Shown one piece after another: positions 8,978-26,094 of a DNA stretch of 64,000 nucleotides. The notes beneath the pieces were generated by a model, which worked only from the letters and a program-made list of their open reading frames with translations, had not been told where the DNA came from and made no database searches. Source of the stretch: Hyphomicrobiales bacterium (GTDB lineage Bacteria > Pseudomonadota > Alphaproteobacteria > Rhizobiales > Rhizobiaceae); NCBI GenBank assembly GCA_900466875.1, contig UBNQ01000003.1:193570-257569 (forward strand), written 5' to 3'. A program made the translations under genes and the position numbers. Position 1 is the stretch's first letter. The number at the start of each line of letters is the position of its first letter.

Positions 8978-9134
8978 GCGCGATCCACGGCGACCGATGG
9001 AGGTTTACGATCCTGGGTGCCTACAAACGTAGGTGGGCGCCATATGTCCAAGCCCACGGGCCTGGTCAGGGACAGCTCCCTTTGGATCGAGTATGGCCCC
9101 AGGGATTGTGGTTCCTGTCGGGAAGCGCAGAACG
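8978..9134 (-). ncRNA. ssrS: 6S RNA (SsrS) candidate
   Basis: Directly downstream of zapA on the same strand, the conserved position of 6S RNA in proteobacteria. Read on the minus strand, the region can fold as one long interrupted hairpin: CCGA/TCGG and AGG/CCT near the base, ATCCcTGGG with CCCAGGAT, then GTGGGC/GCCCAC and a CCTAC-GTTT-GTAGG hairpin. That rod shape mimics an open promoter and sequesters housekeeping RNA polymerase. A -10-like ATATATT (9142-9148) predicts a 5' end near 9134, giving about 150 nt, the usual 6S length. A CTCTTTT run lies just past the 3' end. No convincing coding frame covers the interval. Identity rests on synteny and fold, not on a covariance-model hit. Confidence 0.7.
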
Positions 9135-9198
9135 CATCCGCAATATATGTTCGATCCACAGACAGCGCCAGTGGTCCGCACTCTATTTTTTGCAGTGA

Positions 9199-23688: not shown

Positions 23689-24960
23689 ATGAGACGAAAC
23701 CTGCTTCCCGTCCTCGCCCTTTTATCCGGTACGCTCTTCCTTTTCCTCGGCAATGGCCTTCAGGGCCTGCTTCTCCCCTTGAGGGGAACACTGGAAGGTT
23801 ACTCCAACGAAACGCTGGGCCTTCTCGGTACGACCTGGGCGGCTGGATTTGTCATCGGCTGTTTTGTTGCCCCGAACGTGGTCCGCAGGATTGGCCATGT
23901 CCGCGCCTTCTCGGGCTTCCTCGCGCTGATCTGCCTGAACGTATTGCTGACCGGCCTTCTGGTGGATCAGACTGCCTGGCTGACCTTGCGGGCGATCACC
24001 GGCTTCTGCACCGCCGGCACGTCGATGATCATCGAGAGCTGGCTGAACGAGCGTGCGACGCCGGAAAACCGCGGCACGATCTTCTCCTTCTACATTTCCA
24101 TTACGCTGTTCGGCGTCGTCGGCGGCCAGATGCTGGTCCCCTTCTCCGACGTGACGACGACAACGCTGTTCATGATCTGCGGCATCCTCTACAGCATCGC
24201 CGCACTTCCCACGACCTTGTCCAAGGCAGCCTCGCCACAGCCGCTCAAACGCGCCAGACTGGATCTGAAGGGGCTGTTCAAGAACTCGCCCATATCCTGC
24301 ATCGGCATTTTGCTGATCGGGATCGCCAACGGCGCATACGGCACGCTGGCGGCGGTCTTTGCCAGTCGCGCCGGCCTCTCCCAGGGAGCCGTTGCAGCAA
24401 TGGTGACGATCACCATCTTCGCCGGTGCGATCATGCAGTTTCCCGCAGGCCGCCTGTCCGACCGCATGGACCGGCGACATGTTCTGGCCGGTCTCTCCGC
24501 AGCCGCGGCACTGGCGGGACTATTCGTCGCCGTGATACGGCCGACGGACGCCTACGGCATCATCGTCCTGGTCGCGATCTACGGCGCCGCGGCGAACGCG
24601 CTTTATCCGATCGCCGTTGCCCATGCGAACGACTTTGCCGCGCCAGAGGACTTCGTAAAAGTTTCCGGAGGGCTGCTGCTGCTCTACGGCATCGGCACCA
24701 TCATCGGCCCGACGCTCGGCGGTCCCGTCATGACCTGGGCTGGCCCCTATGCCCTCTTCCTTGTGACCGCGATCGCGCATATGCTGATCACCGCCTACGC
24801 CATCATCCGCAGCCGCCAGCGTGCACCGGTACCGGCAGAACACCGTGATGCCTATACGGTCGCTCCCGCCGCAACCTCACCGATGACGACGCCGGAAAGT
24901 ATTGCGCTCGACCCGCGGTCAGTCCCGGCCGAAGGCACGACAGACGATCGGAGAAACTGA
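23689..24960 (+). CDS. MFS transporter (YcaD-like)
   Basis: 423 residues, 12 predicted membrane helices of the Major Facilitator Superfamily. It has the inter-helix 2-3 motif variant NVVRRIGHVRAF, the block ITGFCTAGTSMIIESWLNERATPENRG typical of the YcaD/ putative amino-acid-permease MFS group, and GRLSDRMDRR at the central loop. The C-terminal 50 residues are hydrophilic. Substrate unknown. It is followed by the DUF1192 gene after 2 nt, so the two are co-transcribed. The ATG has only a weak GAGACG before it. Confidence 0.88.
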   Translation: MRRNLLPVLALLSGTLFLFLGNGLQGLLLPLRGTLEGYSNETLGLLGTTWAAGFVIGCFVAPNVVRRIGHVRAFSGFLALICLNVLLTGLLVDQTAWLTLRAITGFCTAGTSMIIESWLNERATPENRGTIFSFYISITLFGVVGGQMLVPFSDVTTTTLFMICGILYSIAALPTTLSKAASPQPLKRARLDLKGLFKNSPISCIGILLIGIANGAYGTLAAVFASRAGLSQGAVAAMVTITIFAGAIMQFPAGRLSDRMDRRHVLAGLSAAAALAGLFVAVIRPTDAYGIIVLVAIYGAAANALYPIAVAHANDFAAPEDFVKVSGGLLLLYGIGTIIGPTLGGPVMTWAGPYALFLVTAIAHMLITAYAIIRSRQRAPVPAEHRDAYTVAPAATSPMTTPESIALDPRSVPAEGTTDDRRN

Positions 24961-24962
24961 AG

Positions 24963-25154
24963 ATGTCATTTTTCGACGATGACCGCCCGGCGAAGAAAAT
25001 CGCCCACGAGATCGGCTCCGATCTTTCCATGCTGTCGGTGGGCGATCTGGATGCCCGAATCGATCTTCTCAAGCAGGAGATCACCCGGTTGGAGGCCGAC
25101 CGGCAGAAGAAGCAGGCAGGCAAAATGGCCGCCGACAGTTTCTTTAAGAAGTGA
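24963..25154 (+). CDS. DUF1192 protein
   Basis: 63 residues: MSFFDDDRPAKK at the N-terminus, followed by LSMLSVGDLDARIDLLKQEI and a short coiled coil, the DUF1192 signature found throughout alphaproteobacteria. Cytosolic, function unknown. GGAGAAACTGAAG precedes the ATG. It is the second gene of the MFS operon and is followed by the CtrA box and the candidate small RNA, upstream of rcdA. Confidence 0.88.
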   Translation: MSFFDDDRPAKKIAHEIGSDLSMLSVGDLDARIDLLKQEITRLEADRQKKQAGKMAADSFFKK

Positions 25155-25190
25155 GCAGATCCGAAAATACCCAAGTAAAACCTGGGGATT

Positions 25191-25205
25191 TTAAGTGGAT
25201 ATTAA
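25191..25205. promoter_or_regulatory. CtrA box (TTAA-N7-TTAA) before the candidate sRNA
   Basis: TTAAGTGGATATTAA is an exact match to the CtrA recognition pattern. Its second half-site falls at the -35 position of a predicted promoter (-10 CATTAT at 25217-25222), the usual placement for CtrA activation. Confidence 0.6.
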
Positions 25206-25228
25206 TCATTAACAGACATTATCGAACC

Positions 25229-25327
25229 GTCCAGGCTTCCTGGACTCAGACAGTTTCACCACCCGGCGAATGGTCTGATTTCTCCCTGTTTTACCTTGAG
25301 AGCCGCCTTTCCGCGGCTCTTCTTTTT
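25229..25327 (+). ncRNA. candidate trans-acting small RNA, CtrA-controlled
   Basis: About 100 nt with three exact hairpins: GTCCAGG-CTT-CCTGGAC (25229-25245), TCAGAC/GTCTGA (25246-25251 with 25273-25278), and a terminator AGAGCCGC-CTTTCC-GCGGCTCT followed by TCTTTTTT (25299-25327). The single-stranded linker TTTCTCCCTGTTTT can pair with Shine-Dalgarno sequences, a common rhizobial sRNA seed type. A perfect CtrA box and a -10-like CATTAT sit upstream at promoter spacing. The alternative is that it is only the 3' UTR and terminator of the MFS-DUF1192 operon. Confidence 0.5.
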
Positions 25328-25448
25328 TCTGCACCCCTCAAAACCGCGTCAACGGGCCGTGCAATGGCACTTCGCAGCCCTCTTGCGATCAGTGGAAATG
25401 TGTTCCAAAACAAGAACATCCGCACCGGTTTACCGCTTCTTGTGGGTA

Positions 25449-25463
25449 TTAACCTTTCCTTAA
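25449..25463. promoter_or_regulatory. CtrA box upstream of rcdA
   Basis: TTAACCTTTCCTTAA, an exact TTAA-N7-TTAA, lies about 120 nt before the rcdA start, with an ATTATAA -10-like element (25484-25490) downstream. Control of rcdA by CtrA is known in Caulobacter, so this site is likely functional. Confidence 0.75.
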
Positions 25464-25581
25464 TAAACGCCTTGCGGATTTCCATTATAAAGATCATGTT
25501 CAAGTCAATGAGGGCGGCGATGGAACTTTTCGCTACATCCCGCCATTGCCTCATCGTGATTGCGTTAGCAGGATGACATTC

Positions 25582-26094
25582 ATGCAGGAACAGGGTTTGA
25601 ATACCGTCAATTTCGCCGGCCGCGCCGCGAATTCCTCGCAGTTCAAGGTACTTTACACCGAGGGCATGGCCCTGGTGGAAGAGACTGCGACCTATCTGGA
25701 CGGAACGGGCCGCGCCGCGTCGAAAGTACTGCCGCGCATTGCATCCGTACTTTACGCCGCAGAATCTATGCGCCTGACGACCCGTCTGATGCAGATGGCA
25801 TCGTGGCTGTTGCTGCAGCGCGCCGTCAACAACGGCGAGATGTCGAAGGATCAGGTTCTGGCCGAAAAGAACAAGGTCCGCCTCGACGGCTTCAACGTTG
25901 ATCGCAATGCGCCAGGCTGGAACGAACTTCCGGAAGGTTTCCGCGATCTCGTCGAGCGCTCGTTGCGCCTGCAGAACCGCGTCGCCCTTCTCGACCGCGA
26001 GATCTATCGCCCGTCTGACGCAGTTGCCGTTCCGGACAATGAAAACAGCGTCCGCTCGCAGTTGAACCTGCTGCAGACGGCATTCGGCAACTGA
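25582..26094 (+). CDS. rcdA: RcdA-like protease adaptor (DUF1465)
   Basis: 170 residues of the DUF1465/RcdA family: LYTEGMALVEETATYLDG, ESMRLTTRLMQMASWLLLQRAV and NNGEMSKDQVLAEK are the conserved blocks. In Caulobacter RcdA delivers CtrA and other substrates to ClpXP at the cell pole. The ATG at 25582 is favoured because AGGA stands 8 nt upstream; the ATG at 25573 overlaps that site. A CtrA box upstream suggests feedback between CtrA and its own degradation adaptor. It is convergent with the P-loop protein gene downstream. Confidence 0.85.
   Translation: MQEQGLNTVNFAGRAANSSQFKVLYTEGMALVEETATYLDGTGRAASKVLPRIASVLYAAESMRLTTRLMQMASWLLLQRAVNNGEMSKDQVLAEKNKVRLDGFNVDRNAPGWNELPEGFRDLVERSLRLQNRVALLDREIYRPSDAVAVPDNENSVRSQLNLLQTAFGN

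Follow-up and report, generated by a model that had tools for sequence, protein, structure and literature searches.

The stretch of DNA analysed here (64 kb, hereafter the window) carries a gene for a small RNA (sRNA), whose upstream neighbours are an MFS transporter gene and a DUF1192 gene ending at 25154, and whose downstream neighbour is rcdA. Two copies of the palindrome TTAA-N7-TTAA, both putative CtrA sites, lie in front of the RNA (box 1) and in front of rcdA (box 2), respectively (Table 1). An earlier note on this DNA had described two perfect CtrA boxes, and both indeed match the pattern exactly and are its only two occurrences in the 64 kb, as compared to a mean of 0.05 in shuffled sequences, none of which contained two (n = 100). 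In the whole genome of 5.61 Mb the pattern occurs in 37 places and a backwards control pattern in 50. As the palindrome is not enriched genome-wide, boxes 1 and 2 become persuasive only through their conservation. A pattern scan of positions 24800-25800 found no sigma-70 consensus promoter. Box 1 is followed by an additional TTAA (TTAATCATTAA, 25202-25212), which is also present at many loci of the genus and is perhaps an extra half-site. The sole Rfam match at the curated threshold in the window is 6S RNA (RF00013, 75.8 bits), encoded on the minus strand at 8978-9136.

Table 1. Features of rcdA and of the region upstream of it (window positions)
Feature	Position	Strand	Basis
Box 1, TTAA-N7-TTAA, TTAAGTGGATATTAA, putative CtrA site of the sRNA promoter	25191-25205	+	exact match
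Putative -10 element CATTAT	25217-25222	+	by eye; an A/T-rich hexamer recurs there in the promoter rows printed
Small RNA gene, sm84/SmelC671 orthologue	25229-25328	+	fold, synteny, published length of 100 nt, CUCCCUGU anatomy
Hairpin 1	25229-25245	+	fold; changes on both sides in 3/6 pairs
Hairpin 2	25246-25278	+	fold; changes on both sides in 3/5 modelled pairs
Linker between hairpin 2 and terminator	25279-25297	+	fold
Conserved core CTCCCTGT, putative anti-Shine-Dalgarno seed	25282-25289	+	alignment and folds
Intrinsic terminator	25298-25328 (stem 25298-25321, T-run 25323-25328)	+	fold and pattern scan
Box 2, TTAA-N7-TTAA, TTAACCTTTCCTTAA, putative CtrA site before rcdA	25449-25463	+	exact match
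rcdA (DUF1465)	25573-26094	+	Pfam PF07323, E 1e-58

The small RNA and its relatives

The predicted fold of the sRNA has an energy of -39.4 kcal/mol (z = -4.86), and none of 200 shuffled sequences was equally stable. The fold and a terminator scan agree with the three hairpins, CU-rich linker and intrinsic terminator that had been proposed for about 25229-25328. The coordinates of hairpins, linker and terminator were taken by eye from the predicted fold, and the 5' end was set from the published SmelC671 length of 100 nt; in the genus, with the 5' end fixed by rule from the box, the RNA is 97-110 nt long. The core is invariant in 34 aligned rows, all of which were picked for holding CTCCCT, and CTCCC is mostly unpaired in all 54 folds. 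In the 34 core-selected rows the two upstream helices are paired in 96.0% of the cells, 45 cells being altered on both sides, and their covariation of 0.484 compares with at most 0.132 in slid versions and was reached by none of 500 shuffles. The sequences themselves show the RNA with its covarying helices and core, as well as the conserved box discussed below. The U-rich tail of the terminator is the only Hfq-relevant feature visible in the sRNA. In the window's genus the linker around the core is open, whereas outside Rhizobiaceae (e.g. L016, L046, L057, L058) the CCUCCC core is often found in the loop of an additional small hairpin.

Judged by position and anatomy, rather than by comparison with the S. 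meliloti sequence, the window RNA is orthologous to the already catalogued Sinorhizobium meliloti RNA sm84/SmelC671. According to the available portions of the original reports, sm84 is encoded between SMc03988 and SMc03989 (the latter, from synteny, presumably rcdA) and gives a Northern band of ~80 nt and a microarray signal (PMC2573895), while SmelC671 is 100 nt long by RNA-seq (PMC2873474). The accessible text of PMC3927594 gives the anatomy of the SmelC671 family as variable hairpins, a terminator and, between them, a single-stranded CUCCCUGU domain, and it lists ReC71 of R. etli as a relative. With sm84/SmelC671, as well as ReC71 and the family model RFMSmelC671, the window RNA shares the same intergenic position, a length of ~100 nt, CUCCCUGU and the 3' terminator; of the characters that define the family, the exposed CUCCCUGU, the 3' terminator at ~100 nt and the conserved neighbourhood were all found. 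The distance to the 6S RNA gene is 16.1 kb in the window and, by the printed coordinates, 14.2 kb in S. meliloti, with the same relative strands. R. johnstonii 3841 (L130), a strain that figures in the accessible part of the published sm84 alignment, also has the RNA before rcdA.

The earlier note had called an sRNA gene here and proposed a search of Rfam and of sRNA catalogues. The call is borne out by the reported expression of the S. meliloti orthologue (Northern, microarray, RNA-seq, as far as the accessible texts go), and the search led to the catalogued sm84/SmelC671 and to a sub-threshold match with Rfam family RF02356 (BjrC1505). The latter aligns end to end with the window sequence and is homologous by position and core, but the score of 26.5 bits lies below the gathering cut-off of 50, and the window RNA is not counted as a member. 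Above the cut-off, 21 matches to RF02356 were found in 20 of the genomes of 60 relatives. The window's genus contributed none of these, and 16 have a DUF1465 gene immediately downstream on the same strand; in 14 control genomes, Caulobacter included, there was no match. The model stretch, corresponding to 25183-25326 of the window, spans box 1, so that promoter DNA may form part of the 5' side of the Rfam entry. Multiple matches to the RNA family occur in some genomes: L072 (G058), L169/L217/L218 (G237), and L070/L071 (G052), the last two being RF02356 matches in a genome from which the DUF1465 gene is absent.

EcpR1 and GspR are rhizobial sRNAs that act on cell-cycle mRNAs, and their loci differ from that of the window RNA. 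EcpR1 (SmelC291) was ruled out as its identity by the locus, being encoded beside divK-pleD/rpmG and not among MFS, DUF1192 and DUF1465 genes. GspR (SmelC775) lies between SMc03844 and SMc03845 and occurs in the genus Sinorhizobium only, and it was likewise ruled out because the neighbours differ and the window RNA is spread family-wide. A CUCCCU linker and a terminator are common to the window RNA, suhB/MmgR (RF00519) and SorY (RF02651); the scores, 18.2 against a cut-off of 41 bits and 18.1 against 111 bits, do not make it a member of either family. SorX has the same elements in common with some class-wide relatives and is below its Rfam cut-off in those that were searched. CcnA of Caulobacter, encoded at the replication origin and 182 nt long, differs from the window RNA in locus and length.

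Since the RNA has been catalogued before, the addition made by this analysis is its promoter box. Control of non-coding RNAs by CtrA is in itself not new, as CcnA and six such RNAs in Caulobacter show. In the literature covered, chiefly open-access main texts on CtrA, sRNAs and rcdA, we found no link of this RNA to CtrA; in the text available of PMC2573895 and PMC3927594, both of which describe the RNA, "CtrA" occurs 0 times.

Conservation of box 1

In 60 relatives from the order, 58 rcdA loci were found, of which 54 have the RNA immediately in front of rcdA by our rule; the other four were dropped. A box was called when at least 7 of the 8 fixed bases of TTAA-N7-TTAA were present, and its offset was measured from the start of the box to the conserved CUCCCUGU core. 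With an offset range that was set after the genus had been seen, and in related rows whose counts are not independent, box 1 is present in all 36 loci of the same genus, window included (34 perfect), and in 16 of the 18 loci of other families (7 perfect), the misses being G056 (6/8) and G036 (5/8). Its offset stays within 84-103 nt, while the distance from core to rcdA varies from 154 to 323 nt, and 40 different seven-base N7 cores occur in the 52 boxes. Blocks of 30 positions taken as controls in the vicinity of these loci, which omit the 150 nt before rcdA (box 2) and include coding DNA that is probably less AT-rich than the promoter, reached 7/8 in 0/475 and 0/224 cases; for single control positions the figures are 0/15385 and 1/7368.

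Among named loci, box 1 was found in 80 of 80 (76 perfect), these having been kept from 552 and stemming partly from the same genomes as the order set. At the family level, a model of the RNA only (R1), for which the rows used stop before reaching the box, matches 90 of 101 genomes, and 8 of the 11 genomes without a match measure at most 2.6 Mb. Besides the window, 29 family-level loci were examined, of which L285 and L291 have no core by our rule and were left out; in the remaining 27, all scorable, box 1 is present (22 perfect). The comparison of relatives, which the earlier note had recommended for Rhizobiaceae, found both box 1 and the RNA helices conserved, and a conserved TTAA-N7-TTAA site, by which members of the CtrA regulon are recognised, is present at this gene.

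The terminators were misaligned, so that R1 contains no terminator pairs and its matches lean on sequence. Under strict filters it matches 59 of 289 genomes of the class, the window's included. Because a grouping by core context had been made after the rows were seen, we counted instead the strong matches (E <= 1e-5), which besides the window number 32, in 29 genomes and 17 families. The box is present in 24 of them, representing 14 of the 17 families, and starts 75-108 nt before the core, whereas it occurs in 20 of 844 class control blocks of equal width, some of them likewise in coding DNA; the corresponding figures for perfect boxes are 12/32 and 2/844. The eight strong matches scored as misses include f133 (6/8 twice) as well as L182, L183 and L184, which have no recognisable core; a looser rule gives L183 a 7/8 box. 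At L177 the box starts only 75 nt before the core, which is the edge of the searched range. Of the weaker R1 matches, 6 out of 31 have the box.

A second sRNA-like type, characterized by AGACGT(G)AAGCCTCCCTGT and, where printed, a terminator-like end, has 13 class-wide matches (L186, L189, L191, L193, L194, L196, L198, L200, L202, L203, L205, L206 and L214). It has only the CCTCCCTGT-terminator module in common with the RNA studied here, and the box was found in none of the 13.

The box could also be a generic AT-rich promoter element, or the site of another AT-preferring regulator, leaving the RNA independent of CtrA. The pattern is, after all, not enriched genome-wide, some loci retain only 5-6 of the 8 bases, and earlier authors gave sm84 a sigma-70 promoter (PMC2573895, in its accessible portion). 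We nevertheless consider this unlikely, as the N7 spacing is exact while the cores vary freely (40/52), the position is nearly fixed, the control rate is close to zero, and the element is missing from the second RNA type; besides, a published S. meliloti ChIP-seq peak of CtrA lies in the promoter region, according to the part of PMC4433202 that is available.

At 18 of the 32 strong matches, rcdA follows on the same strand at no more than 1 kb, and 13 of these 18 have the box (4 perfect), as do 11 of the 14 at which it does not (8 perfect). In the order, the box is kept in unlinked or second copies of the RNA, namely L069 (8/8) and L072, L073 and L074 (7/8 each); the RF02356 loci L070 and L071 of G052 lack CTCCCTGT and were not scored. 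Although related rows are not independent, the box is also found on class-wide and order copies away from rcdA and goes with the RNA rather than with rcdA. Its nearly fixed distance in distant relatives makes it probable, as far as can be told from sequence, that the RNA has long belonged to the CtrA network. The same copies away from rcdA bear on the idea that the RNA acts in cis, as a leader or attenuator of rcdA, and not in trans, to which its place directly upstream in 54 of 58 rcdA loci and the several start sites of agrobacterial rcdA (available text of PMC10469942) could point. Because RNA and box occur together away from rcdA, we rejected it as the main reading and regard it as highly improbable; the strong terminator, and the 100-nt RNA and ~80-nt band in the accessible S. 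meliloti reports, also speak against it. The RNA has a terminator of its own, so that it forms a transcript distinct from that of rcdA.

Box 2 and rcdA

Box 2 has a narrower distribution. Perfect copies occur at all 36 genus loci, at all 80 named loci (kept from 552) and at 20 of 26 rcdA-linked loci at the family level, where the other six have at most 6/8. None of the 18 loci of other families has a perfect copy, and three of these reach 7/8. The simplest reading is that box 2 is younger than box 1, and control of rcdA by CtrA via box 2 would then be a separate feature of part of Rhizobiaceae.

In S. meliloti, CtrA was located at the rcdA promoter region by ChIP-seq, and depletion of CtrA had no effect on rcdA transcription; the terms "sRNA" and "small RNA" are absent from the available text of that report (PMC4433202). 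A site that serves the RNA would account for binding near rcdA without an effect on rcdA. For S. meliloti, a scan of protein-coding genes only had also predicted a CtrA motif ahead of an rcdA start site (PMC3616915), and a possible CtrA site accompanies the several start sites of agrobacterial rcdA, agrobacterial CtrA sites being situated further upstream than those in Caulobacter (PMC10469942). As far as the accessible parts of these papers go, the published rcdA data fit, rather than prove, a CtrA promoter that belongs to the RNA.

The earlier note had envisaged a compact module in which CtrA drives the sRNA together with rcdA. Only half of this proposal is supported. Box 1 accompanies the RNA even where rcdA is located elsewhere, whereas box 2 is perfect only in part of Rhizobiaceae, and in the available text of PMC4433202 depletion leaves rcdA transcription unaffected; a single module driving both finds no support as stated. 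We lean, with some caution, towards an ancestral, class-wide, CtrA-driven RNA of the SmelC671/BjrC1505 kind, which would be older than, and independent of, the control of rcdA by CtrA, so that the CtrA peak at S. meliloti rcdA would at least partly represent the promoter of the RNA.

Proposed function and search for targets

We think it probable that the window RNA is the local copy of an old alphaproteobacterial sRNA with an activating CtrA-site promoter, which serves as an anti-Shine-Dalgarno repressor arm. Taking 25229 as the transcription start, which we deduced from the SmelC671 length, box 1 has its first base at -38. Phosphorylated CtrA would bind there, over the -35 region, and the RNA would be switched on when CtrA is high. 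In Caulobacter ctrA, a full CtrA site at -39 (P2) is read as activating and one at -14 as repressing, according to the portion of PMC4287350 available. As -38 matches the -39 of P2, we liken box 1 to an activating site, and the promoter distance claimed for it before can be restated: box 1 is a conserved promoter element in a position resembling that of activating CtrA sites. The position alone does not prove activation, since in Caulobacter a full site can activate or repress, according to how far it lies from the start (PMC4287350, same portion), and CtrA on box 1 could repress the RNA or gate it jointly with SciP or another factor. Given the activating placement at -38, relative to the deduced 5' end, and the repressing example at -14, we find such an arrangement rather unlikely.

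For the RNA activated by CtrA, the exposed UCUCCCUGUU just before the terminator would pair with Shine-Dalgarno regions of mRNAs and reduce their translation, a kind of pairing that the exposed CUCCCUGU suggests. CtrA would thereby gain a post-transcriptional repressor arm, comparable to the sRNA arms that stress sigma factors have. The neighbourhood of rcdA would be usual for the gene and not required for the box. What is deduced here from sequence includes the binding to box 1 itself, the activating effect, the mode of action and the targets. If this is true, many Alphaproteobacteria possess a deeply conserved non-coding output of CtrA, the binding of CtrA at rcdA without an effect on rcdA finds a direct explanation, and a regulatory context is provided for an sRNA family that has been catalogued since 2008, with no function found in the literature covered.

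The RNA might also loop back on the cell-cycle core via the mRNA of ctrA, gcrA or rcdA, which would be compatible with its activation by CtrA. An AAGGGGA stretch precedes the ctrA start in 18 of 18 genus rows examined, and GspR and CcnA show that sRNAs can act on ctrA. However, among 111 start regions of the window's genome, which include ctrA, come from a crude gene caller and are partly biased towards seed matches, ctrA ranked 12th by duplex energy, gcrA 30th and rcdA 53rd. None of the three stood out in this set, and we judge a loop of this kind quite unlikely.

Small trial searches revealed no conserved target among the matches listed. For cysE, at least 9 complementary bases were present in 3 of 30 loci (G000, G004 and G010; 30 of 58 matches), and the candidate was discarded as not conserved. 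A DUF533 gene has AACAGGGAG in its start region in 18 of 30 genus loci, among the matches listed (30 of 40 genomes). Two observations led us to drop it: the window's genome lacks AACAGGGAG, and inspection by eye makes the motif one arm of a hairpin that spans the start region of the gene itself. This hairpin, seen in L296-L325 upstream of the DUF533 gene (G000:C37:84643-85221 in the window's genome), covers, again by eye, the Shine-Dalgarno region, and its arms seem to change together between species, as a possible cis-regulatory element of the DUF533 gene might.
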